A DNA stretch of 64,000 nt from positions 372,001 through 436,000 of the forward strand of contig NZ_JAIUJR010000001.1 in assembly GCF_020166335.1 (NCBI RefSeq). The letters are read 5' to 3'. The notes below the pieces were generated by a model. The model did no database searches and was not told where the DNA came from. It was given only the letters and a program-made list of their open reading frames with translations. Positions 1,160 through 57,310 of the stretch are shown here, piece by piece. Each line of letters begins with the position of its first letter. Within the stretch, counting starts at the first letter, position 1. Made by a program: the position numbers and the translations under genes. Source of the stretch: Winogradskyella alexanderae. Its GTDB lineage: Bacteria; Bacteroidota; Bacteroidia; Flavobacteriales; Flavobacteriaceae.

Positions 1160-2224
1160 TTACAACAAAGCAATTAAAGTCCAAGATACAATCATTGACC
1201 TTGGCACACGGCTGTTCATAATTTTAAACCATAGTGGCGGAACCATAGACAAAACCATAGAGGTTGGATATCCAAAAGGCATTTGAGGACTTTCTTCGTG
1301 ACAGTGTAAAACTTGATATTTCTTTGAGGACTTGTAATGATGATCACTATGCCTTGTTAATTCATACAAAACAATACGCCCAATTACATGGTTCGAGTTC
1401 CACGAGTGCACCTCTTTAACGCGTTCATATCGACCAGATTTCGTTTGTGAACGCAATAAACCATAATGCTCAATATAATTGACGGTTTCCAACAGAACAA
1501 AACCAACAATACCTGAAGCTATAGCAAACAGCAATGTTTTTGGGCCAAAAGTGAGAACAACTAAAGCTAGATAGGCCAATTGAATAAAGGTGTACCAAAG
1601 CATATCATTCTTAAATGACCAAAATGAATTACCAGTATTTTTTAGAAGCTTTTTTTGAATACGCCACGCACTAAAATATTGTCTTATGGTTGAGGTAAAC
1701 CAAAAGGAGTAAACGGATTGATTATATTTTGCTGTGGCAGGATCTTCAGGTGTTGCTGCATTAAGATGATGCCCATAATTATGCTCAATGTAAAAGTGCA
1801 TGTAAAAGGAGGGCAGGAGCAATGCTTTCCCCAGAAAGCGTTCATTCGTTTTCTGCCTGTGGCCAAGTTCGTGCCCAACATTTATTCCATTTACGCCTAA
1901 CACGATACCGACAGAAAATATGAGGCCAACGAATTCATAAGTTTCTAAATTTGATGTAGAGACTAGATACAGCCCATAAATTAAAATCCCATATACTACA
2001 GGAAGGTTTAGGTATAGCAGCCAATCGAACACTTTGTTTTTGAGTTTAGAATCTGCGGTTTTATCATCCAAGTTTGATGTGTCCATAGGAAAAATAAGTT
2101 CTAACACAGGAATACATACAAACGCAAAAACAGGCGTGGCCCAGACCCAATAATTTTGAAACATTAATCCAATAAGTGCAACGGAAGGTATGGAAAATGC
2201 AGCTAAGTACTTTAGATCTTTCAT
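1160..2224 (-). CDS. alkB: Membrane-bound alkane 1-monooxygenase (AlkB-type)
   Basis: Predicted integral-membrane diiron hydroxylase that oxidises the terminal methyl of medium-chain alkanes with electrons from a rubredoxin. The 354-residue protein has several hydrophobic helices and the family's histidine boxes: HELGHR (118-123), EHNYGHH (147-153) and LTRHSDHH (289-296), plus the NYIEHYGL signature (249-256) that separates AlkB from fatty acid desaturases. It is slightly shorter than Pseudomonas AlkB (about 400) but usual for Bacteroidota. No rubredoxin or rubredoxin reductase is adjacent. It reads leftward toward gltX and may be cotranscribed with it. The leader contains a TAnnTTTG element and an inverted repeat. 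Substrate range cannot be read from the sequence. Confidence 0.9.
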   Translation of the reverse strand: MKDLKYLAAFSIPSVALIGLMFQNYWVWATPVFAFVCIPVLELIFPMDTSNLDDKTADSKLKNKVFDWLLYLNLPVVYGILIYGLYLVSTSNLETYEFVGLIFSVGIVLGVNGINVGHELGHRQKTNERFLGKALLLPSFYMHFYIEHNYGHHLNAATPEDPATAKYNQSVYSFWFTSTIRQYFSAWRIQKKLLKNTGNSFWSFKNDMLWYTFIQLAYLALVVLTFGPKTLLFAIASGIVGFVLLETVNYIEHYGLLRSQTKSGRYERVKEVHSWNSNHVIGRIVLYELTRHSDHHYKSSKKYQVLHCHEESPQMPFGYPTSMVLSMVPPLWFKIMNSRVPRSMIVSWTLIALL

Positions 2225-2241
2225 ATGAATTTAACATTTAT

Positions 2242-2274
2242 AGATTCTAAATTAACAGAATCTTACCAAATTTA
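2242..2274 (-). promoter_or_regulatory. Putative alkB promoter element with adjacent inverted repeat
   Basis: On the minus strand TAAATTTG (2274-2267) fits the Bacteroidota -7 element TAnnTTTG, 43 bp before the alkB start. Directly downstream, where transcription would begin, lies a perfect 7-bp inverted repeat, AGATTCT/AGAATCT (2242-2248 and 2257-2263, 8-bp spacer). I found no well-spaced TTG -33 element, so the promoter call is tentative. The repeat could be an operator for a substrate-responsive regulator. Confidence 0.4.
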
Positions 2275-2325
2275 GGGAAATGGCAATTAAAATAAAATTG
2301 TAGTTTAGTAAGTTAGTATATAGTA

Positions 2326-5300
2326 ATGAGCAATTTTAATGACATAAAATCGAAGCTTGAAGCCTTTATAAAGAAGTATTATACAAACGAACTTCTCAAG
2401 GGCGCAATTTTATTTTTTGCCATAGGATTTCTCTATTTTTTAGCAACACTATTTATTGAGCACCTGCTTTGGTTAAATACCACATCTAGAACCGCCTTGT
2501 TTTGGATTTTTGTAGCGGTTGAGTTGGTCCTGTTTTTAAAATTTATCGCCATTCCTCTAGCCCAATTATTTAAACTTCGGAAAGGAATCAACCACGAAAA
2601 AGCTTCCCAACTCATTGGAAATCATTTTCCAGAGGTAAATGATAAACTGCTTAACGTGTTACAGCTTAGCAAAAGCTCAGACCATTCAGAGTTGCTTTTA
2701 GCTAGTATAGAGCAGAAGGCAAAAGAGCTCAAGCTCGTACCCTTTCAGTTGGCAATTAATTTCAGGTCTAACTTAAAATACTTAAAGTACGCTGCAATAC
2801 CTGTGATAATTTTGCTTTTGTCTTTTGTTTCGGGTAAAATTAATTGGTTTAGCAATAGTTACGAGCGTGTAGTAAACTACAAAACCGCTTATGAACCACC
2901 TGCGCCATTTCAATTTTTTGTGATTAATGAATCTTTGAATGCAATAGAGAATAAAGATTTTAAGCTTAAGGTAAGAACCGCAGGAGATGTAATACCAGAA
3001 AATGCACAGATACGATTTAATGACCAATCGTATTATTTGCAACCAATTGCACCTGGAGAATTTCAATTTGTTTTTAATCTAATAAAAGAGAATACTGAGT
3101 TTACCCTCACGGCAAACGGCACATCTTCAAAACCTTATGTGTTAGAGGTCCTAAACACACCAAATCTTACTAAATTCGAGATGGTTTTAGATTATCCATC
3201 ACATACTAAGAAGCAAGACGAGGTGCTGAAAAGTACTGGCTCAGCAATTGTCCCAGAAGGCACTAAGGTTACCTGGAGAGCTCAAACCAAATCAACCACT
3301 ACGGTTAACATTTATTCTAAGGATACATTAAGTTTTGAGCAAGATGAAGAAGGGCGATTTGTAGCCTCCAAGCGCTTGTATAGTAACTACAACTACAACA
3401 TAACGACAAGTAACAAGAAGCTCAAGGACTACGAGAATTTGGCTTATAATATCAGTGTGGTTAAAGATGCACACCCTGAGCTTAAAATCGTAGTTCAGAA
3501 GGATACTATGGATCAGCAAAGCTTATATTTTTATGGCCAAGCAAGTGATGATTACGGATTAAGCAAATTGCAGTTGGTTTATTATCCTGCTGAGGACGAA
3601 ACTCATAAAACCACCGAAGAGCTAATGGTGTCAAAGTCTAATTTTAGTGAGTTTGTAACAGCTTTTCCAAACCAATTGAATCTCCGTGAAGGTGTAAGCT
3701 ATCAGTTGTATTTTGAGGTTTTCGATAATGATCTGGTTAACAAGTTTAAACGAACAAAAAGTAGTGTGTTTAGCTATAGAAAACTTACAAAGGAAGAAGA
3801 AGAGCAGAAACAACTTCAGGAACAGAACAAAACCATAAACGATATAAGCAAGACTTTTGAGAAGCTTGAGGAGCAGGACAAAAAGCTTGAGGAGTTTTCT
3901 AAAACACAGAAAGAGAAGGAGCAACTGAATTTTAATGATAAGAAAAAGTTCGAAGAGTTTTTGAAGCGCCAAAAGCAACAAGAACAGCTGATGAAGAACT
4001 TCAATAAAAAACTCCAGGATAATCTTAAAGAGTTTCAAAACGAAAAAAAGGAGGAAGACCAATTCAAAAAGGATTTACAAGAACGTCTTAAGGAAAATGA
4101 GCAAAAATTGAAGCAAGACGAAGAGCTTTTGAAGGAATTGGAAGAACTAAAGGATAAGATTAATAAGGAAGAATTCACTCAGAAGCTAGAAGAGCTTGCA
4201 AAGCAAAACAAAAATAAAAAGCGCAGCATGAATCAATTGTTAGAATTGACAAAGCGTTTTTATGTTATGAAAAAGACTGAGAAGATAGCCAATCAATTGG
4301 ATGAACTATCCGAAAAGCAAGAAAAGCTCTCTGAGAATAAGGACGAAAACAATAAGGAAAACCAGGAGAAACTCCAGGATGAGTTCAAGAAGCTTCAGGA
4401 AGATATTGACGAATTAAAACGCGACGACAGAAGGTTACAAAAACCCATGAATGTACCTCGAGATGAATTCATTGAGAGCGAAGTCAATTTTGACCAAAAT
4501 GATGCTAAGGAATCTTTAGAAGAAAAGGAGCTAATAGAAGAGCAGAAAGGACAAGAAACACAAGAGTCTAAAGAACAGCTTCAAAAGGCGAAGGAGCGTC
4601 AAAAAAAGGCTTCAAAGAAAATGAAGCAACTTAGCGAGATGATGAAGCAATCGCTTTCAGGAGGAGCCGGAGGAGGCGACCAGGCAGAAGAGGATGTTGA
4701 TATGCTTCGCCAGATTCTGGAAAATCTTCTGCTGTTTTCATTTGATCAAGAAGCGTTGATGAACACATTCGAAGAGATTAATATTGACAACAACAAGTAT
4801 GGCAAATATATTATAGAGCAAAGTAATTTGAGAGAGCATTTTGAGCACGTTGACGACAGCCTGTTTGCACTTTCATTGAGACAACCAAAAATTTCCGAAA
4901 AGGTAAATTCTCAAATTACAGAGGTTTATTTCAACATTGATAAATCCTTGGATCAATTAACCGAGAACAGGCTGTATCAAGGCATAGCTGCACAACAATA
5001 TGCAATCACCGCCAGTAATGAACTAGCAAGTTTCCTTAGCGATGTTTTAGACAATATGGAAATGTCCATGAACGCAATGCCTAGCACAGGTCAAGGAAAG
5101 GGGCAACAGCTGCAAGACATAATTATGTCGCAGGAAGAGCTCAATAAACAAATGGAAGAAGGCGTTAAGAAGAGCGAAAAAGGAATTGAAGGAAAAGAAG
5201 GGCAAGAGGGTAAAGAAGGCAAGGGTAAAGAACAAGGTGAAAAAGGCGAGAAAGGTAAGGGTGAAAGCGAGGGCAATGAAGGTCAAGAAGCGAGTAAGGG

Positions 5301-5925
5301 CGAGAATGGTCAATCTGGTGAAAATGGAAATCAAAACGGACAGAGTGGACAGAACGGAAATAATGGCCAGCAAGATGGTGAGGGAAAAGGCAACAATAAT
5401 AACGGCAACTCCAAAGACGGTAAGAATGGCTCAAGAGGGCAGGACGGACATGGAGATCAAGATGGCGAAGAGAATAATGACGGCTATGGACAAGGTGGCA
5501 ATGAAGAACAAAACGCTGAGCTGTTCAAAATTTACCAACGCCAACAACAACTTAGGCAGGCGCTGGAGGATAAAATCTCAAAAGATGGTGAAATACAATC
5601 AGCGGGTGAGTTAATTAAGCAGATGGAAGAAGTAGAGCTTGATTTACTTAACTATGGATTCACAAATCAGACGCTCCAAAAGATGATGGATCTGCAACAC
5701 CAGTTGTTGAAATTAGAGAACGCTACGTTTCTACAAGGACAAGATTCTAAGAGAGAATCTGAGACTAATAAGAAGGAGTTTAATAATACAAATACCAACC
5801 AAATACCAACAGCCAAACAGTATTTCAATACTACTGAAATATTAAACAGGCAAGTCTTACCTTTACGAAATCATTTAAAGAAAAAGATTCAAGATTATTT
5901 CAAAAGCGCAGATGGTAAATTTTAA
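2326..5925 (+). CDS. DUF4175 family large membrane-anchored coiled-coil protein
   Basis: Function unknown; I recognise the Bacteroidota DUF4175 family. The 1199-residue protein has two hydrophobic helices near 22-75 and a third near 150-170, then a long, probably periplasmic part. Residues about 500-850 are Lys/Glu/Gln-rich heptad-like coiled coil. A helical segment follows, then a low-complexity Gly/Asn/Gln/Lys/Glu tract (about 953-1062) with many collagen-like Gly-X-Y triplets, and a helical C-terminus. Membrane anchor, long coiled coil and disordered linker suggest an envelope-spanning or scaffolding role, which is inference. Its 3' end overlaps ybeY by 14 bp, so the two are probably translationally coupled. 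Confidence 0.8.
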   Translation: MSNFNDIKSKLEAFIKKYYTNELLKGAILFFAIGFLYFLATLFIEHLLWLNTTSRTALFWIFVAVELVLFLKFIAIPLAQLFKLRKGINHEKASQLIGNHFPEVNDKLLNVLQLSKSSDHSELLLASIEQKAKELKLVPFQLAINFRSNLKYLKYAAIPVIILLLSFVSGKINWFSNSYERVVNYKTAYEPPAPFQFFVINESLNAIENKDFKLKVRTAGDVIPENAQIRFNDQSYYLQPIAPGEFQFVFNLIKENTEFTLTANGTSSKPYVLEVLNTPNLTKFEMVLDYPSHTKKQDEVLKSTGSAIVPEGTKVTWRAQTKSTTTVNIYSKDTLSFEQDEEGRFVASKRLYSNYNYNITTSNKKLKDYENLAYNISVVKDAHPELKIVVQKDTMDQQSLYFYGQASDDYGLSKLQLVYYPAEDETHKTTEELMVSKSNFSEFVTAFPNQLNLREGVSYQLYFEVFDNDLVNKFKRTKSSVFSYRKLTKEEEEQKQLQEQNKTINDISKTFEKLEEQDKKLEEFSKTQKEKEQLNFNDKKKFEEFLKRQKQQEQLMKNFNKKLQDNLKEFQNEKKEEDQFKKDLQERLKENEQKLKQDEELLKELEELKDKINKEEFTQKLEELAKQNKNKKRSMNQLLELTKRFYVMKKTEKIANQLDELSEKQEKLSENKDENNKENQEKLQDEFKKLQEDIDELKRDDRRLQKPMNVPRDEFIESEVNFDQNDAKESLEEKELIEEQKGQETQESKEQLQKAKERQKKASKKMKQLSEMMKQSLSGGAGGGDQAEEDVDMLRQILENLLLFSFDQEALMNTFEEINIDNNKYGKYIIEQSNLREHFEHVDDSLFALSLRQPKISEKVNSQITEVYFNIDKSLDQLTENRLYQGIAAQQYAITASNELASFLSDVLDNMEMSMNAMPSTGQGKGQQLQDIIMSQEELNKQMEEGVKKSEKGIEGKEGQEGKEGKGKEQGEKGEKGKGESEGNEGQEASKGENGQSGENGNQNGQSGQNGNNGQQDGEGKGNNNNGNSKDGKNGSRGQDGHGDQDGEENNDGYGQGGNEEQNAELFKIYQRQQQLRQALEDKISKDGEIQSAGELIKQMEEVELDLLNYGFTNQTLQKMMDLQHQLLKLENATFLQGQDSKRESETNKKEFNNTNTNQIPTAKQYFNTTEILNRQVLPLRNHLKKKIQDYFKSADGKF

Positions 5926-6319
5926 TTATGAAGCCGATTTTAAACTTAACAACGAAGAGAAATTAGAGCATTGGATTAATGACGCTGTGTCTGAAGAGAA
6001 TTTTAAATTGGGTGATGTAAATTACATTTTTTGTACCGACCCTTACTTACACAAACTTAATGTAGAATTCCTTGGTCACGATACTTTAACGGACATTATT
6101 AGCTTTGATTATACTGTAGGAAAAATTATACAAGGGGATATTTTTATTTCTGTAGAAAGGGTACAGGAAAATGCAACGTATTATAATGTAGATTTTAATA
6201 ACGAGCTATTACGTGTTATGATACATGGAATACTGCATTTTTGTGGTTACAAAGATAAAACAGATGGCCAAGCAAAAATCATGCGCTCTAAGGAAGAATA
6301 CTATATGGTTAGGTATTGA
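5912..6319 (+). CDS. ybeY: Endoribonuclease YbeY (16S rRNA 3'-end maturation)
   Basis: Single-strand metallo-endoribonuclease acting in 16S rRNA maturation and ribosome quality control. The 135-residue length fits the family. The zinc-site region reads HGILHFCGYKDKTDGQ near residues 108-123. The first two His ligands of the usual H-x3-H-x5-H pattern are present, but the third is not in its expected place (Lys/Asp instead). I believe this variant is common in Bacteroidota YbeY, so an Asp may supply the ligand. The gene overlaps the preceding DUF4175 gene by 14 bp. mnmG has its own promoter downstream. Confidence 0.9.
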   Translation: MVNFNYEADFKLNNEEKLEHWINDAVSEENFKLGDVNYIFCTDPYLHKLNVEFLGHDTLTDIISFDYTVGKIIQGDIFISVERVQENATYYNVDFNNELLRVMIHGILHFCGYKDKTDGQAKIMRSKEEYYMVRY

Positions 6320-6346
6320 TGCTATCATAGATTCAACGTATATTTG
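6316..6346 (+). promoter_or_regulatory. Bacteroidota-type promoter of mnmG
   Basis: TTG at 6316-6318, a 20-bp spacer and TATATTTG at 6339-6346 match the TTG/TAnnTTTG consensus. The -33 element overlaps the ybeY stop region. Transcription would start near 6353, upstream of the ParB-type palindrome, so the palindrome would lie in the mnmG leader. Confidence 0.6.
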
Positions 6347-6370
6347 CAAACTTAAATTTTTTAAACAAAT

Positions 6371-8303: not shown

Positions 8304-9185
8304 ATGAATGGTAAAATGAACCAATCAACTTATTTAAAGGTAAAAGACCATTCCGTTTCTGGAGAAGAATTTCAACTGATTCTTAATGAAGATCTCCAAA
8401 TGTTGGAGACTTTTCCAAAGCCTACAGAAGAGAAATTATCTCAGTATTATAAGAGCGAAGATTATATTTCGCATACAGATTCTAAGCGAAACGTATTCGA
8501 ATATGCGTATCACATAATTAGATCGAGAGCTTTAAGAAATAAGTTGAAGCTCATCAATTCATTTGATACAGAAGCCAAAGACCTGTTAGATATTGGTTGT
8601 GGCACAGGCGATTTTTTAAGAACCGCTCAAAATTCTGGTTGGTCAATCACTGGAATTGAACCGAATGTTCAAGCCAGGACAATTGCGAATGACAAAACAG
8701 GGAACAAAGTATTTGAGGCTGAGCAGCTATTAAGTATTGAGGAAAATAGTTTTGATGTAATTACACTTTGGCATGTTCTTGAACACCTTCCAAAGTTGGA
8801 AACTCACATTAGTCTTTTTAAAAACCTTTTAAAACCTAACGGTTTTCTTGTTGTTGCAGTTCCTAATTTTAAAAGTTATGATGCACAGCATTATAAATCG
8901 TTTTGGGCAGCTTATGATGTACCAAGGCATTTATGGCACTTCTCAAGACAATCTATTAAGCACCTTTTTGGAAAATTTGGTTTTACAGTTGTTAGTACTC
9001 GTCCAATGATTTTTGATTCGTTCTATGTAAGCTTATTGTCTGAAAAATATAAGAGCGATTTTATGAATCCGATCAAGGCGTTTTGGATAGGATTACTTTC
9101 TAATATTAAAGCAAGAGATTCAAAAGAGTATTCATCGCTTATTTATATTATTAAAAAGACTAGTACCCTTTCTCTTGCGCTGTAA
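8304..9185 (+). CDS. Class I SAM-dependent methyltransferase (UbiG-like fold)
   Basis: Predicted methyltransferase of unknown substrate. Motif I, LLDIGCGTGDFL, lies near residues 95-106, the acidic residue binding the SAM ribose is in GIEPN, and the post-motif ITLWHVLEHL is typical of small-molecule and sugar methyltransferases. The N-terminus is divergent and lacks an obvious zinc-binding cluster. Start could be the ATG at 8304 or the second at 8316. It follows mnmG and the perfect parS site by 12 bp, suggesting cotranscription with mnmG, though its link to tRNA modification is unproven. In many Flavobacteria a methyltransferase of this type sits after mnmG. Confidence 0.8.
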   Translation: MNGKMNQSTYLKVKDHSVSGEEFQLILNEDLQMLETFPKPTEEKLSQYYKSEDYISHTDSKRNVFEYAYHIIRSRALRNKLKLINSFDTEAKDLLDIGCGTGDFLRTAQNSGWSITGIEPNVQARTIANDKTGNKVFEAEQLLSIEENSFDVITLWHVLEHLPKLETHISLFKNLLKPNGFLVVAVPNFKSYDAQHYKSFWAAYDVPRHLWHFSRQSIKHLFGKFGFTVVSTRPMIFDSFYVSLLSEKYKSDFMNPIKAFWIGLLSNIKARDSKEYSSLIYIIKKTSTLSLAL

Positions 9186-9348
9186 TAAACTATTTAAGGA
9201 ATAGATTCACAATTACACCTTTCAGTTTTAAAATCTCTTTAAAACGCTTTATTTGACTCAAATATTTATTGATAAAACAAATAGCTACACATTAAATTAT
9301 AGTTTTTGTATATATCTTATAAAAATATGTTTCACTAGTTTACTTTTA

Positions 9349-9356
9349 TACATTTG
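9349..9356 (+). promoter_or_regulatory. Putative -7 element upstream of the OmpH-like gene
   Basis: TACATTTG fits TAnnTTTG and lies 25 bp before the start codon at 9382, inside a very AT-rich 196-bp intergenic stretch (9186-9381) that otherwise shows nothing. No clean TTG is found 17-23 bp upstream, so the -33 element is weak. Confidence 0.5.
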
Positions 9357-9381
9357 CAAAAATTAAATTGAAATCAATATC

Positions 9382-9909
9382 ATGAAAAAACTAATAACGA
9401 TTTGTATCATAGCGCTAACGTTTTCATCCTGTCAAGAACAACAAAAAATTGCTTTTGTGGATAATACCAAGGTTGTGAATGATTATCAAAAGAAAAAAGA
9501 CTTTGAAGAAAAGTTCAAAATCAAAATTGAAAATTTCAATAAAAAAGCAGACAGCTTACAGAAAGCAATTCAATTAGAAGCACAAATGTTTCAGTCTCGT
9601 GCAACAAAGATGAGTCAAAGTAAGGCAGAAGAAGAGTACAACGCGCTTGTGCAAAAAAAACAAATGCAAGATTATCAACTTAATAATGAGGAGAAACTAT
9701 TACAAGCTGAAGGCCAAAAAGAAATAGATACCCTTGTTAAGCAGGTAAAAGCATTTATAAAAGACTATGGAAAACAGAATGGTTACACATTTATTTTAGG
9801 TGCGAATGAAGCTGGAAGTGTATTATATGGTGCTGATAAACAGGATATTACGGAAGAAATCCTAACCATGCTTAATGGTGTAGGATCTAAGTCTGAAGAC
9901 AAAGAGTAA
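9382..9909 (+). CDS. OmpH/Skp-family periplasmic chaperone-like lipoprotein
   Basis: 175 residues with an N-terminal signal ending in the lipobox FSSC (Cys17), so probably an envelope lipoprotein. The mature part begins with the Skp/OmpH strand KIAFVDNTKVVNDY, continues as a long charged helical hairpin (about 40-125), and ends with the C-terminal strand YTFILGANEAGSVLYG, the usual OmpH-family layout. Skp-like proteins hold unfolded outer membrane proteins in the periplasm. Lipidation is not seen in E. coli Skp but occurs in Bacteroidota homologues. The gene is monocistronic, with its own -7 element and a terminator directly after it. Confidence 0.82.
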   Translation: MKKLITICIIALTFSSCQEQQKIAFVDNTKVVNDYQKKKDFEEKFKIKIENFNKKADSLQKAIQLEAQMFQSRATKMSQSKAEEEYNALVQKKQMQDYQLNNEEKLLQAEGQKEIDTLVKQVKAFIKDYGKQNGYTFILGANEAGSVLYGADKQDITEEILTMLNGVGSKSEDKE

Positions 9910-9926
9910 TTAGTATAAAAATCAAT

Positions 9927-9954
9927 AAAGCCAGGCTTATGCTTGGCTTTTTTT
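9927..9954. terminator. Bidirectional intrinsic terminator between ompH-like gene and holB
   Basis: The arms AAAGCCAGGC (9927-9936) and GCTTGGCTTT (9941-9950) form a 10-bp stem with one G-T wobble and a 4-base loop. A T tract follows on the plus strand and an A/T tract precedes it for the minus strand. The holB stop codon (9937-9939) lies in the loop, so one element serves both converging genes. Confidence 0.82.
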
Positions 9955-11094
9955 ATGTAGTAATCGCGTCAGTTTAATTGATAAATCTGTCAGAATAATT
10001 TTAGAATTACCATTTCTTTCAATATGGTATACAGCTTCTTGAAGTTCGTGTGAAATCTCCATTATATTGTTGTCATGAACAAACGGCGCAAATTTTTCAA
10101 GTTTAAAATTTTCTGACTTGGGTTCTAAATATACTAATTGGTTAGCCTTATAATTCAGCAATAATGCTTGTCTAAAATAATTTAAGCAAAAGTTTAAAAA
10201 TTTCTTTTGTGTTTCCCTGCCTGTTTTAGCAATTTCCTCGGACCATAAAATTAAATCATGTATAGCACCTTTATTACCCTTCGCTTTAAATGCAGATCTA
10301 ACCCAAGCAACAAACCATTTTTCAAACTGTATGTCTTCACTGTCTTGATAAATAAGATCACAGGCCTTGTTGTAATTTCCATTAGATTGGTGTGCAATTT
10401 TTGAGGCAATTGATTTTTCAATGTGGTAATTTTTTACCAAAGCTTCTGCTATAACTTCTTCGGATAAAAGTGGAAAATGTAAAACTTGGCAACGCGACCT
10501 AATGGTATTTATAATTTGTTCTTCATCTTCAGCAATAAGAATAAAAACTGTTTTTTCCGGAGGCTCCTCAATAAGCTTTAATAATTTGTTTGCACAGGGC
10601 GTATTCATTTTTTCGGCCATCCAAATTATCATAACTTTGTACCCGCCTTCATAAGATTTCAGGGAAAGAGATTTCACAATTTCATGTGCCTCGTCTACAC
10701 CAATTTGTCCTTGTTTATTGTCAACCCCAAGCAGTTTATACCAATCAAACAAATTTCCGTAAGGCTGTTGTTCTAATAATTGGCGCCACTCTTCGAGGTA
10801 AAAATTAGAAACAGGCTTACTTTTTACCTTATTACTTGTCGTTACAGGAAAAGCGAAATGAAGGTCAGGATGAGAAAAGTTTTTAAACTTTAAATTACAT
10901 GACTCGTTACCACCTGAATTTTCTTCGTTTACATTATTACATAATAGATATTGGGCATAGGCCAGTGCCATAGGCAAAGTACCGCACCCTTCTGGCCCTA
11001 CAAATAACTGAGCATGAGCAATTCTGCCCTTGTCAACACTTGTGGTGAGATGGTTTTTGATATGTTTTTGACCTAAGACTTCCGAAAAAAGCAT
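9937..11094 (-). CDS. holB: DNA polymerase III subunit delta'
   Basis: Clamp-loader AAA+ subunit (385 residues). It starts MLFSEVLGQKHIKNHL and holds the pocket motif AHAQLFVGPEGCGTLPMA. The Walker A lysine and threonine are absent (G-C-G-T-L), fitting delta' which does not hydrolyse ATP. NTPCANKLLKLIEEPPE resembles the sensor region, and SRCQVLHFP is the conserved SRC motif of clamp loaders. Two Cys (CNNV and SCNLKF near 52-66) remain of the zinc module. TAGTTTTG just upstream (11106-11099, minus) fits a -7 element and would imply a very short leader. It converges on the ompH-like gene. Confidence 0.9.
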   Translation of the reverse strand: MLFSEVLGQKHIKNHLTTSVDKGRIAHAQLFVGPEGCGTLPMALAYAQYLLCNNVNEENSGGNESCNLKFKNFSHPDLHFAFPVTTSNKVKSKPVSNFYLEEWRQLLEQQPYGNLFDWYKLLGVDNKQGQIGVDEAHEIVKSLSLKSYEGGYKVMIIWMAEKMNTPCANKLLKLIEEPPEKTVFILIAEDEEQIINTIRSRCQVLHFPLLSEEVIAEALVKNYHIEKSIASKIAHQSNGNYNKACDLIYQDSEDIQFEKWFVAWVRSAFKAKGNKGAIHDLILWSEEIAKTGRETQKKFLNFCLNYFRQALLLNYKANQLVYLEPKSENFKLEKFAPFVHDNNIMEISHELQEAVYHIERNGNSKIILTDLSIKLTRLLHKKSQA

Positions 11095-53024: not shown

Positions 53025-53747
53025 ATGATATATACAAAAGACATTTCAAAATCTTACAACAATACAGTTGTTCTTAAAATTGATGAACTAACCATACCAA
53101 GAGGTCAGAGTTTTGGTTTAGTTGGGAATAATGGTGCTGGTAAGACCACATATTTTAGTTTGCTATTAGATTTAATAAAACCAACTACTGGAACTATATC
53201 AAACAATGAAATTGTAGTAGATAAAAGTGAAGATTGGAAACCATTTACCTCTTCATTTATTGATGAAAGCTTTCTAATAGGTTACCTAACTCCAGAAGAG
53301 TACTTTTATTTTATAGGCGATTTGAGAGGCCAAAACAAAGCCGATGTGGATGCATTGACATCCAAGTTTGAAGATTTTTTTAATGACGAAATAATAGGTA
53401 AGAAGAAATATCTTAGAGACTTAAGTAAAGGAAACCAGAAAAAGGCCGGTATTGTTGCGGCTCTGATCGGTAATCCAGAGGTGATTATTTTAGACGAACC
53501 TTTTGCCAACCTCGATCCAACCACACAAATAAGGCTCAAACAAATCCTTAAAGACCTAGCGGAGAAGCAAGGTGTCACTATCTTAATATCCAGTCACGAT
53601 TTAATGCACGTTACTGATGTTTGTGAGCGTATTGTAGTATTGGAAAAAGGGGAAATAGTCAAAGACTTGGAAACCAATCCAACAACCCTAAAAGAGCTCG
53701 AGGCTCACTTTGCTGGACGAATGGAGCCTGTGGAAGAGGAAGAGTAA
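53025..53747 (+). CDS. ABC transporter ATP-binding protein
   Basis: 240-residue ATPase with Walker A GNNGAGKTTYF near residue 36, a signature of degenerate type LSKGNQKKAGI (in place of LSGGQ), Walker B VIILDEPFANLDP and the switch His in SSHDLMHV. The short C-terminal tail is acidic (VEEEE). It partners the DUF5687 permease upstream. The LSKGNQKK form is common in ABC-2-type exporters such as the natA group. No terminator is evident in the 117 bp that follow. Confidence 0.92.
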   Translation: MIYTKDISKSYNNTVVLKIDELTIPRGQSFGLVGNNGAGKTTYFSLLLDLIKPTTGTISNNEIVVDKSEDWKPFTSSFIDESFLIGYLTPEEYFYFIGDLRGQNKADVDALTSKFEDFFNDEIIGKKKYLRDLSKGNQKKAGIVAALIGNPEVIILDEPFANLDPTTQIRLKQILKDLAEKQGVTILISSHDLMHVTDVCERIVVLEKGEIVKDLETNPTTLKELEAHFAGRMEPVEEEE

Positions 53748-53864
53748 ACCATAACTGCTAATACATAAGGATTATAAATAATTAGGATTAATTACTTTTT
53801 TGCTCTTTATTGAAAAGACAGAGGAATAGGTATGGCTAGATATTAAATTTTGTTGTGAATGCCC

Positions 53865-54608
53865 TTAGATTCCTAAAATTTCTTCAAATAGGAGGCTAGC
53901 ATATTGAAATTTTTGCCTGAATTTATAAAAGCGGCGTCTTAGATAGTGTGTTTCAATACCATGCAGATTGGCATTTGTAATATCACTTTTGGGATTATCT
54001 CCAACCATTAAAACATTTTTAGGATTTATATTTTCCTGTTCTAATATTTTTTTAAAAATGAGTCCGTTGTTTTCCTTGCTTGCTTTTTGTGATGCCGAAA
54101 CAAATACCTTATCATATAGGTCGTCAATTTTATGAACCTCCATAAGACGTAATAACATGTCCTCATCTGCATGGAAATCAGATACGCAGAAAAGAGTATA
54201 TCCTTCTGCCTTAAGTTGGCGTAACACTTTGACAGTTAAATTGTTCAAATATTGAACACTGGCTTCTGCTTTAAAATCGGCCTCGTAAGCCTTCATTATA
54301 AAATCTTTTAAGGAACTGGTTTTGTCTAGGTTTAACTCATAATATAATTCTTGCATTACTGTTTCGTATCTAATTTCAGATTCAGTTACATTTAAAGACC
54401 TAGACATATTACTCATGATATGTCTCCGCAGATGGTAAAGTTCATTAACCTTAAGGTCAAGTCTCAAATGCTCAATTAAGGACCTCGCCCAAATTTTGAA
54501 GGGCTTAAGAGGGTGCACTCGTCTATGAACGATAGTGTCGTAGTAATCGCAAAAGATATATTCAATTGACTGTGAGTTCCGTACTTTCTTGAGTATTGGG
54601 TCTTTCAT
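53865..54608 (-). CDS. HAD superfamily hydrolase with intact active site
   Basis: 247 residues. Motif I reads FCDYYDTI with likely nucleophile Asp21; the second Asp of the phosphatase DxD is Tyr, as in haloacid-dehalogenase-type members (DxYGT). Motif II is in FCVSDFH, the motif III Lys in QKASKENN, and motif IV is VGDNPKSDI. The helical cap lies between about 35 and 120. Substrate unknown. Similar domains open large polysaccharide-locus proteins (COG5610-like). It is divergent from a paralogue whose HAD site has decayed. Confidence 0.82.
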   Translation of the reverse strand: MKDPILKKVRNSQSIEYIFCDYYDTIVHRRVHPLKPFKIWARSLIEHLRLDLKVNELYHLRRHIMSNMSRSLNVTESEIRYETVMQELYYELNLDKTSSLKDFIMKAYEADFKAEASVQYLNNLTVKVLRQLKAEGYTLFCVSDFHADEDMLLRLMEVHKIDDLYDKVFVSASQKASKENNGLIFKKILEQENINPKNVLMVGDNPKSDITNANLHGIETHYLRRRFYKFRQKFQYASLLFEEILGI

Positions 54609-54922
54609 AAAAAATGTCTAATAAGTTTAACTAGCCCCTTAATAGCTTTTGATTATTGTAGCATAATTAAAAGAACAGTTTTTAACACTGTCTAACGGAC
54701 TATAAATAAAGGTGTATAATAGATTTAATTTCTTAAGCATAGGTTGATCCGACCTTCATTTTCATCGATAATTTAATTTGAGCTAAAATAGTACAAAAGA
54801 AACAATTGTCCTTTGTCGTAAGGTTTTGGGCTTAAAAAGTTTCATAATCTATTAGCATATTTTACACTTTAACTTCTTAAATGTGCTAATTATCTAATTT
54901 ATATTCAGTAATATAAATTTTT
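54609..54922. other. Divergent intergenic region between the two HAD-type genes
   Basis: This AT-rich 314-bp stretch must hold promoters for both HAD-type genes unless the right-hand gene starts downstream. I found no confident TTG/TAnnTTTG pair on either strand, no strong hairpin, and no coding remnants. Confidence 0.4.
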
Positions 54923-57007
54923 ATGAGCTATTGTTTTAACTTCACTTTTGTTAAGACTCAGATTATACCAAAACTAACCGAAATGAATGGTAGAGCTATG
55001 TCTAAATTAACCGCTAGCCGAGAGATAAAATTACTTTTTATCAATTTTTTCGACTATGTGGTTTTTAGGAAATTTAAAGAGCAGAAAAAGGATATGCTCT
55101 TGGCAAAATTAATGATACGAGAGTTAGGAATAGATTTACAAACAAACCAATTATTCCTTATACTTAAAGACTGCAAAGCTAATGCAGGTATCCAAAATTT
55201 AGATGATTGTTCGAGTTTAACTTACCAAAGAATAATAGATGAAGTTTATGCACGATTAATATCTAATAAGGTATTGCCCAGACCAGCAAAAACCAACTTT
55301 GTAAATTGTTTCAAGCTGGCAGATGTCCATTCGAAAGTATTAACAAGTGCTCCCAACCAGTCCTTCATAAAATTATTGACCAAATTGAAAAATAAGGGGT
55401 TCAAGCTTTACTGTTATTCAGAATCTAAAGATAATTATCAGGCCATAAAAGACTATATCGAAACACAAGGGCTGCAGCATCTTTTTGAGGACGTTTTAAT
55501 GTATGATGCAAAAGAGGCTAAAGCTCAAAAAACGCTATTTTTCCAAAGAACTTTAGATGAGAAGGCGGTAACTGACGAGGAAACTCTTGTTATTTCAAAG
55601 GAGAATAAAAATTGGTTTAACGAATTAGGGGTTACCCCGACCAGTTTAGAGACTAACTCTACAGAAACATTAAAATCCCTACCTGAGTTCAAAGAGTACC
55701 AGGGCATAGTAGACAATCTTTATAGAGCTTGCAATAATAAGTCAGCGCCTTGCCATAGTGATTATATCTTATTCTATTATGTATATATAGAGCGTTTGTA
55801 CAAAAAAGCCAAAAGGGACAACATTAAAAATATTTGTTTTCTAGCGAGAGAAGGACTGTTTTTAAAAAAGCTTTTTGATCACTATCAAAACCAAATTGCT
55901 TTAGACAAAGACAACCTGATTAAATCTCACTATTTTAAGGCTTCACGAAACTCATTGATGCTAGCCTCGTTCAAAGACATAAAAGAAGAAAAATTTGAAT
56001 ATTTAAGAAGACGCTGGCCAAACTTATCTGTAGACAGTTTTTTGAAAAACTTCAATTTTCCAAAGGAAACGAAGGAGGGTATAGTCAAAGCTGCAGGATT
56101 AGAAAATTCGCATTCAACTGTAATTGAGGGCTTTTTGGATACAGAAACATTTTCAGTGCTAAAACGTACTCCAGAATTTGTTATCGCTTACAATAAAACC
56201 CGTCATGAACAAAAAAAGTATTTTGAGGCTTATCTAAACTCTTTTAATCTAGACATAAAGACTGAAGGTATTCATTTAGCTGACATTGGTTGGGTAGGAA
56301 CTATGCAAAATCGACTCTACGAGTTTTTTAATCACGAGATAAAGGTAAATGGCTATTATTTAGGTTTGCGTGAGGTTCATAAAATCAAAGAAAACAACCT
56401 AAAATATGGACTTAACTTTAGTTTGTATCCTGAGATTGATTTTTTTGATTACATCCTCAAGGCCAATGTAGAACTTAATGAACAACTTTTGGCAGCAGGT
56501 CATGGAAGTACTATTGCATACACAAGTAAAAAAAACGGTTACACTATTGAGGAGTTTGAAGAGAGTGAAAAAAGGTGGTTTAAGAAATACATAGGCCCCA
56601 CCCAAGAATTTATGTTTGAACGTTTCAAGGAATTAACGCAGTTACTCAAAAACGTTTGTTATGATTATAATGACGAACAATATGTTATGGCAGACTATGC
56701 TCTTAAGATAGGGCTTTTTGCCGATAAGAGAAAAGTAATGCGAGAAGTAAAAATATATGAAGGGTTTTACGAAAATGTTGGTAATTTTTCGGTGGGTTTG
56801 GCGTTTGGACAGAACCTAGACAGGGCCCAAAAAATAGAACTTTTTAAAAACTTCTTCATTTATCCGGAAAAAGCCTTTAGGTATGTACTTCGTTTAAAGC
56901 CAATGCTCTTAAGGCGAGAGATGTACTTCTTAGCCTATTTCATTCCAACGTATCTTATTTATTATTATATTAGGTTTAGGATGAAGAGGAAGGGATTAAT
57001 TCCATAA
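54923..57007 (+). CDS. Pseudo-HAD protein fused to a COG5610-like C-terminal domain
   Basis: 694 residues from the ATG at 54923; alignment with the neighbouring HAD gene favours the in-frame ATG at 54998 (MSKLTASREIK). The first 230 residues align with that enzyme but lost its site: LLFINFFDYVVF has Asn where the nucleophile Asp should be, LYCYSESKDN lacks motif II, and LVISKENKNW replaces VGDNPKSD. The rest (about 270-694) carries ICFLAREGLFLKKLF and LADIGWVGTMQNRLYEFF, resembling the C-terminal part of COG5610 proteins in polysaccharide loci. The function is unknown, possibly glycan assembly. No transmembrane helix except a weak C-terminal one. Confidence 0.62.
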   Translation: MSYCFNFTFVKTQIIPKLTEMNGRAMSKLTASREIKLLFINFFDYVVFRKFKEQKKDMLLAKLMIRELGIDLQTNQLFLILKDCKANAGIQNLDDCSSLTYQRIIDEVYARLISNKVLPRPAKTNFVNCFKLADVHSKVLTSAPNQSFIKLLTKLKNKGFKLYCYSESKDNYQAIKDYIETQGLQHLFEDVLMYDAKEAKAQKTLFFQRTLDEKAVTDEETLVISKENKNWFNELGVTPTSLETNSTETLKSLPEFKEYQGIVDNLYRACNNKSAPCHSDYILFYYVYIERLYKKAKRDNIKNICFLAREGLFLKKLFDHYQNQIALDKDNLIKSHYFKASRNSLMLASFKDIKEEKFEYLRRRWPNLSVDSFLKNFNFPKETKEGIVKAAGLENSHSTVIEGFLDTETFSVLKRTPEFVIAYNKTRHEQKKYFEAYLNSFNLDIKTEGIHLADIGWVGTMQNRLYEFFNHEIKVNGYYLGLREVHKIKENNLKYGLNFSLYPEIDFFDYILKANVELNEQLLAAGHGSTIAYTSKKNGYTIEEFEESEKRWFKKYIGPTQEFMFERFKELTQLLKNVCYDYNDEQYVMADYALKIGLFADKRKVMREVKIYEGFYENVGNFSVGLAFGQNLDRAQKIELFKNFFIYPEKAFRYVLRLKPMLLRREMYFLAYFIPTYLIYYYIRFRMKRKGLIP

Positions 57008-57310
57008 AAAACATCTTTGCTTCGCATTTCTTTTAAACTTCTCTGCTGAAACTATAAAAATGTTTTTTGCATTGATGATTTCTTTAATATTCAATGCTCG
57101 ATTCTTTTATACTAAATACGCTTTTAACGTTTTTTAGATGGTGTTGTTTAAGTTGATTAATATTTCTTAAAACTTGTGATTCTTTTTGTCTATTTCAAGA
57201 CATGAAAAATAAATCAATTCAGTGCTAGTTTACAAAAGATGTTTATTTTTACCATCTAGCATACTAAAAACCTAATAGTTTAGTTATGTAATTGCCAAAT
57301 AGAACCAACA
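57008..57310. other. Intergenic region upstream of sprE
   Basis: A 303-bp AT-rich stretch with no open frame of note. A TATTTTTA near 57243-57250 is one base off the -7 element, but no well-spaced TTG is present. I see no hairpin or repeat worth naming. Confidence 0.35.

Follow-up and report, generated by a model that had tools for sequence, protein, structure and literature searches.

A probable two-chain polysaccharide ribofuranosyltransferase with a degenerate fused phosphatase domain in Winogradskyella alexanderae

Why should a complete phosphatase of the HAD family be encoded back to back with a longer relative that has lost the same active site? The question is raised by a divergent gene pair in a 64,000-nucleotide stretch of Winogradskyella alexanderae DNA (contig NZ_JAIUJR010000001.1, positions 372,001 to 436,000, the whole of which is termed the window) encoding a protein of 247 amino acids (aa) on the minus strand and one of 694 aa on the plus strand. 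Both open reading frames lie where a preliminary description made from the sequence alone had placed them, and its alignment of the N-terminal part of the long protein with the short one is borne out (approximately 211 residues, 21% identity, E 1e-14). Sequence and fold comparisons make it likely that the locus encodes a split polysaccharide ribofuranosyltransferase composed of two chains. The enzyme family is already known, and the combination of an apparently dead fused phosphatase with a free one is a new arrangement in it.

A PDB sequence search with the 694-aa protein returns one significant match, chain A of 7SHG, which is entitled "Ribofuranosyl transferase" and covers query residues 32-622 at E 1.1e-48. 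The family of 7SHG is bipartite with an N-terminal HAD phosphatase, the phosphoribose phosphatase (PRP), and a C-terminal glycan phosphoribosyltransferase (gPRT) dependent on phosphoribosyl pyrophosphate (PRPP). The family assignment is taken from this search because the Pfam and NCBIfam matches are limited to general HAD models in the HAD regions, faint in the 694-aa protein, and leave the gPRT part without any match. The AlphaFold model of the 694-aa protein, built on 45 sequences (predicted local distance difference test score (pLDDT) 81.2, predicted template modeling score (pTM) 0.84), is matched best by 7SHG in Foldseek (E 5.1e-28) and aligns to it over 570 residues with a Z-score of 31.4 and a root mean square deviation (rmsd) of 3.1. 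The next fold matches are to Bcs3 (8A0M and 8A0C, Z 19-20) with an rmsd of about 16 over both domains. A HAD-type PRP is present N-terminal to the gPRT (the 7SHG alignment begins at residue 32, and model residues 30-248 match HADs), and the region beyond it, described earlier as an unknown domain of about 400 residues, comprises approximately 445 residues and is the gPRT domain by its match to 7SHG.

The gPRT motifs are intact in the 694-aa protein with LAREG (R309, E310, G311), SR (S341, R342), ADIGWVGT (D454, G456, W457, G459, T460), Q462 and HG (H527, G528), and the PRPP-site residues of the family (REG, SR, DIGWxGT) are all present in its C-terminal domain. Roles for the PRPP-site residues are named for CriT of Bcs3 in section 9 of PMC10299916; mapped by motif to these CriT residues, LAREG and ADIGWVGT would be the active-site motifs of the gPRT. 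Conservation was followed in an alignment of 92 sequences composed of the two window proteins, two proteins from an Allomuricauda contig (L045) of a metagenome-assembled genome (MAG), and a further 88 fused homologues, almost all of which belong to Flavobacteriaceae as far as their names or relationships are recorded. Residues R309, E310, G311, R342, D454, G456, W457, G459, Q462, H527 and G528 are identical in the window protein, the Allomuricauda ortholog and 88 of 88 others. T460 is replaced by Ser in 7 of the 88, and S341 is invariant across 45 alignment rows. The window protein keeps 54 of 58 near-invariant gPRT positions.

In the fused PRP domain the nucleophile Asp is replaced by N41, motif II reads SE in place of SD and motif IV reads SKEN in place of GDN, losses that had been recognized before, and the motif-III Lys, previously unmentioned, is replaced by Ala at position 201. 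Six of the seven scored PRP sites are lost (N41, Y45, E167, A201, S225, K226), compared with five in the Allomuricauda ortholog, which keeps the nucleophile Asp and has lost motifs II, III and IV. The fused PRP of the 694-aa protein looks catalytically dead on this pattern, and with the domain incomplete the chain by itself falls short of a bifunctional member of the family. Despite the lost catalytic residues the HAD fold is retained in the model. The difference between the free and fused proteins extends across the domain, with 25 and 26 of 29 near-invariant PRP positions kept in the free proteins from the two loci and 9 in each of the dead fused domains. Two positions run opposite to the catalytic residues: both dead fused domains keep R111, which the free proteins replace by E and T, and also F188, which is Tyr in both free proteins. 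The pattern at these two positions would fit contact with the gPRT rather than catalysis.

The 247-aa protein is a free PRP by both sequence and fold. HAD motifs I-IV are all present (D21 in DYYDT, VSDFH, SK, VGDNPKSD), confirming the complete active site claimed for the minus-strand protein. In the PDB sequence search the 7SHG PRP domain ranks first (E 1.8e-19), followed by 2HOQ (3.7e-8). The predicted model (pLDDT 95.1, pTM 0.89) is closest in fold to the same domain, with a template modeling score (TM) on the query of 0.84-0.85 and an rmsd of 1.8-1.9, and the remaining matches among the 50 listed have TM ≤0.64. Identity to the 88 fused PRPs is 30-41%. In the characterized members considered here the PRP is part of a ribosyl-transferring polypeptide, whereas the 247-aa protein stands alone. 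Judged by its motifs, a complete PRP is available to the gPRT, encoded 314 bp away.

Full-length homology to a solved member and a complete set of active-site residues argue that the gPRT of the 694-aa protein would use PRPP and attach ribofuranose-5-phosphate to a growing glycan. The fused N-terminal phosphatase domain would contribute no catalysis, and the free PRP would strip the 5-phosphate in trans, after which the chain could be extended or capped. The dead PRP is probably retained because it packs against the gPRT domain, and as a scaffold or dock it may position the free phosphatase. Action in trans is reasonable because pieces of Bcs3 containing CroT/CrpP and CriT, inactive singly, made polymer when combined (PMC10299916).

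The homologue surveys illustrate how unusual the arrangement is. All of the 88 further fused homologues retain the PRP residues D, T, II-D, K, G and D, with Thr in place of II-S in 11; a degenerate fused PRP occurs in that alignment only in the window protein and the L045 ortholog (2 of 90 fused chains). Rows dropped before the 88-row count were L114 (truncated), L118 (931 aa, above the length limit, with PRP motifs that look intact), two proteins of L120 (below the E-value limit) and rows with the last 500 residues identical to a kept row. A neighbor scan of 76 loci with the 247-aa protein found a free PRP only at L045, the locus of the other dead fused PRP, using a threshold of E 1e-6 that misses distant PRPs and flanks of up to 10 kb, several of them cut short by contig ends. 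Some of the 88 homologues came with only about 1.5 kb of flank, and the scan therefore covers the 76 loci taken from genome contigs. Among the 90 aligned fused chains, the two degenerate ones are the two that have a free PRP as a neighbor. The preliminary description had regarded homologues with an intact nucleophile Asp as refuting its proposal; such homologues are the 88 and the L045 ortholog. They show that degeneration is lineage-specific, which does not turn the window pair into an ordinary one.

Across 397 genomes of the family including that of the window, 25 have a match to the free PRP at E 1e-15 or better, and of the 33 matches listed, 32 lie in open frames of 681-728 residues and one, that of the window, in a frame of 250. 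Within the genus a gPRT homologue is present in 23 of 68 genomes, the window's included, and a strong free-PRP match in the window genome only, other short-frame PRP matches (227-239 residues) having E values of 8.6e-6 or worse. No third pair of the exact form was found in the 397 family genomes (free PRP as query), 395 genomes of the order (694-aa protein) or 395 of the phylum (alignment A2), surveys from which absence is not demonstrable and of which the last two scored at most two candidates per genome. The phylum survey lists 16 matches outside the window genome in frames of 202-301 residues (E 5.7e-17 to 8.9e-11); the gPRT motif pattern is missing within the approximately 1.5-kb flanks at all 16 loci, and they are provisionally taken as other HADs. 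Nearly all examined relatives have both halves intact in one chain. A literature search on split or inactive PRP and on ribofuranose in flavobacterial glycans, with most subscription journals outside its reach, listed no paper on a split PRP. In a more distant relative in the phylum (L162:1402-3543, a 714-residue frame) the PRP is intact but the gPRT motif differs (RDA, DAGWTTN), and the protein perhaps represents another transferase subfamily.

The two halves of the fused chain have diverged at very different rates. Over 3,828 pairs of canonical homologues the PRP and gPRT identities differ by a mean of -0.3 points (standard deviation 5.3, lowest -21.5), compared with -38.7 between the window protein and its L045 ortholog, which are 66% identical in the gPRT and 27% in the fused PRP. 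The two dead-PRP chains group together in the trees with support of 100 for the gPRT and 98 for the PRP, and the two free PRPs group with support of 99 in one tree and 100/100 in another. Given both groupings, the split is best explained by a single old event, after which both genes were inherited or transferred together, and not by two independent ones. The dead PRP domain has a very long branch (3.37 changes per site), and its position in the tree is therefore unsure. The window free PRP falls among fused flavobacterial PRPs in the best tree, which is suggestive of derivation from a fused copy, and only suggestive because a tree keeping 33 fused rows together, with one outgroup row (L118) left outside the group, is not rejected (approximately unbiased test, p-AU 0.103). 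In Tamlana two bifunctional PRP-gPRT genes lie close by on the same strand (L067:7833-12106, L092:10001-14279, L098:6338-12079), and such tandem genes are a possible source of split copies through duplication and partial loss.

Several observations weigh against a split enzyme. The two window genes are divergent and do not form one operon. The exact split is known in two examples with one shared origin, which means the correlation between a dead fused PRP and a free PRP is one evolutionary event. A Proteobacteria contig (L120) has a dead fused PRP for which the scan shows no free PRP, the intact PRP there belonging to a second fused protein. At the Allomuricauda locus the free PRP, a 253-residue open frame 51% identical to the window protein, is on the opposite strand to the gPRT gene as in the window, and an intact bifunctional PRP-gPRT gene (L045:12175-14343, minus strand) adjoins the dead-PRP gPRT gene, giving three related genes. 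Because of this intact copy, the free PRP there might serve something else. The L045 genes are part of a polysaccharide locus that also contains glycosyltransferase and sugar-nucleotide genes (names read from translations).

A more demanding form of the two-chain enzyme is an obligate heteromer in which the dead phosphatase domain would be the docking seat for the free active phosphatase and, the genes being divergent, dephosphorylation could be switched independently; this is a tentative proposal with the balance tilted against it. Alternatively, the gPRT may have no committed phosphatase, with the 5-phosphate retained or removed by a general phosphatase and the neighboring HAD acting on some other small phosphate ester. 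HAD phosphatases are often promiscuous, which favors this explanation, as does the sugar transferase gene (name read from translation) that parts the free PRP from the gPRT gene at L045. It is nevertheless unlikely, as the free HAD is nearest to the ribofuranosyltransferase PRPs in sequence and fold, and as a strong match outside a fused chain it occurs only in the window genome in the genus and family surveys and, among the 76 loci, only beside the other dead fused PRP.

An enzyme paired with a regulator, where the 694-aa protein is a non-catalytic glycan-binding partner or regulator of the active HAD, would agree with an N-terminal domain that keeps the fold without the catalytic residues, but every scored gPRT residue is kept, with 66% identity to the ortholog, and drift is confined to the PRP part. 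The 694-aa protein is expected to be the glycosyltransferase itself, making such a pair highly improbable. Hence of the interpretations offered in the preliminary description, the active enzyme beside a degenerate extended paralogue stands, the heteromer or pseudo-enzyme module is plausible and an enzyme-regulator pair is unlikely to be the main account. That the locus is simply decaying, the fused PRP broken after horizontal transfer in an enzyme heading for loss with the free HAD a bystander, has very little probability, for although a single genome in the genus sample carries the insertion and the branch of the dead domain is very long, the same state is found in another genus and has thus persisted, with both frames open and the gPRT and free PRP conserved.

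The preferred two-chain enzyme appears to have entered this genome as a unit, as the pair is an insertion of approximately 3.4 kb in a conserved slot and the only long genes within it are these two. The gene immediately to the left is presumably an ABC-transporter ATPase and that to the right presumably a PorW-like lipoprotein. Genes assumed to encode an ABC permease and the PorW-like protein served as flanking markers in a synteny survey and were found in 67 and 68 of 68 genus genomes, respectively, on one contig and strand in 64. Their spacing, measured with one copy where a genome had two matches, is 927-1,473 bp in 62 of the 63 other genomes and 4,327 in the window genome; the exception, G152, has a spacing of 5,376 with a permease match of only 39% identity. 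The match to each of seven sister regions breaks off on the left at 53713-53746 and picks up again at 57234, and in the two closest sisters 109 bp lie between these points. The insertion explains the location of the pair outside the polysaccharide operon, a location that had been pointed out before. Composition is weak as proof of horizontal transfer (guanine plus cytosine content of 32% in the insert, 34% in the window and 36% in the two flanking genes), and synteny was used instead. A role in anti-phage defense was rejected, PADLOC giving no match for the short protein and a best E of 0.22 for the long one, as was a phage-borne origin, with no match in the phage collection.

Table 1. Positions of the two genes, their domains and the insertion in the window
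Feature	Position	Strand	Basis
Free phosphoribose phosphatase (PRP, HAD family), 247 aa, catalytic motifs complete	53865..54608	-	7SHG PRP domain match by sequence and fold; motif residues
Pseudo-PRP fused to gPRT, predicted polysaccharide ribofuranosyltransferase chain, 694 aa as called	54923..57007	+	7SHG match by sequence, Foldseek and model alignment
Degenerate PRP domain, approximately residues 31-236 (N41 for Asp, Y45, E167, A201, S225-K226-E227)	55013..55630	+	Motif alignment
gPRT domain, approximately residue 246 to end, active-site motifs intact	55658..57004	+	Motif alignment; 7SHG match
Divergent intergenic region, 314 bp	54609..54922	.	ORF coordinates
Insertion relative to sister genomes	53747..57233	.	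Comparison with seven sister regions

Because the intergenic region is divergent, the two genes are read on opposite strands. An exact TTTG-N17-23-TANNTTTG element, presumably the Bacteroidetes promoter consensus, was not found in L001. Residues 1-18 of the 694-aa model have pLDDT <50, and the annotated N terminus may be too early, with Met21 or Met26 as possible starts. Approximately 10 kb from the pair, window positions 19438-44266 form a polysaccharide locus that encodes rml-like proteins, glycosyltransferases and several membrane proteins resembling O-antigen polymerases (names read from translations).

Two proteins that Pfam and NCBIfam describe only by general HAD models gain a likely function from the analysis. 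In the studied PRP-gPRT enzymes, namely those of Klebsiella O4 and O7, Bcs3 and Cj1432, both steps are on one polypeptide. A phosphatase off the chain with a pseudo-enzyme in its old seat lets one ask whether the two steps need physical coupling, whether the PRP has roles beyond catalysis and whether dephosphorylation is a control point of chain growth.

Arrangements that resemble the window in part are seen in Proteobacteria. O-antigen-like clusters of Pseudomonas aeruginosa and Rhizobium rosettiformans plasmids contain a gPRT of 423-425 aa without a PRP, annotated as hypothetical, near an intact PRP-gPRT, with one glycosyltransferase gene between (L186:6058-7335 and 8576-10630; L187:5968-7239 and 8465-10486). 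As in the window, a gPRT without its own phosphatase has an intact PRP in the same cluster, but the pseudo-PRP is absent and the intact PRP belongs to a second, bifunctional protein. On the Proteobacteria MAG contig L120, a PRP-gPRT (4091-6367) combines intact gPRT motifs with a degenerate PRP, in which the nucleophile Asp persists but SD is replaced by SG, GDN is replaced by ADY and the Lys is missing. Upstream, with one frame between, lies a second protein (1287-3278) whose PRP is intact and whose gPRT motif is altered (RDA, DIGWTGN), the faults of the two being complementary. The sequences of these incidentally met loci suggest that supplying the phosphatase in trans may have evolved repeatedly. 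If the dead domain does act as a dock, such neighbors of an intact PRP, whether gPRT-only proteins or gPRTs with a dead PRP, would make the in-trans phosphatase a repeated design in this enzyme class.

Among characterized systems, the PRP-gPRT enzymes represented by Thermobacillus composti 7SHG are like the window in whole-length domain order, fold and gPRT motifs, and differ in that the fused PRP of the window appears dead and a separate complete PRP gene adjoins it. Klebsiella pneumoniae O4 ORF5 and O7 ORF7 have both catalytic domains in one chain (PMC11231755). In PPPRS, of the three-component alpha-pentofuranose system (PPPRS, flippase, GT-C), the PRP is fused to a UbiA-type membrane prenyl transferase (PMC11127046), whereas its partner in the window is a gPRT. 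Cj1432 of Campylobacter jejuni (GT4-PRP-gPRT) uses a middle HAD domain to remove the phosphate after C-terminal ribose-5-phosphate transfer (PMC12096443) and carries three active domains in one chain, unlike the window. Bcs3 of Haemophilus influenzae type b (CroT-CrpP-CriT; 8A0C, 8A0M), the next-best fold match, combines the HAD phosphatase CrpP with the PRPP-dependent ribose-5-phosphate transferase CriT, which contacts the CrpP domains of both protomers (PMC10299916). Natural Bcs3 is one chain that includes a ribitol-phosphate transferase and an active CrpP, whereas in the window the phosphatase step would be placed on a second polypeptide.

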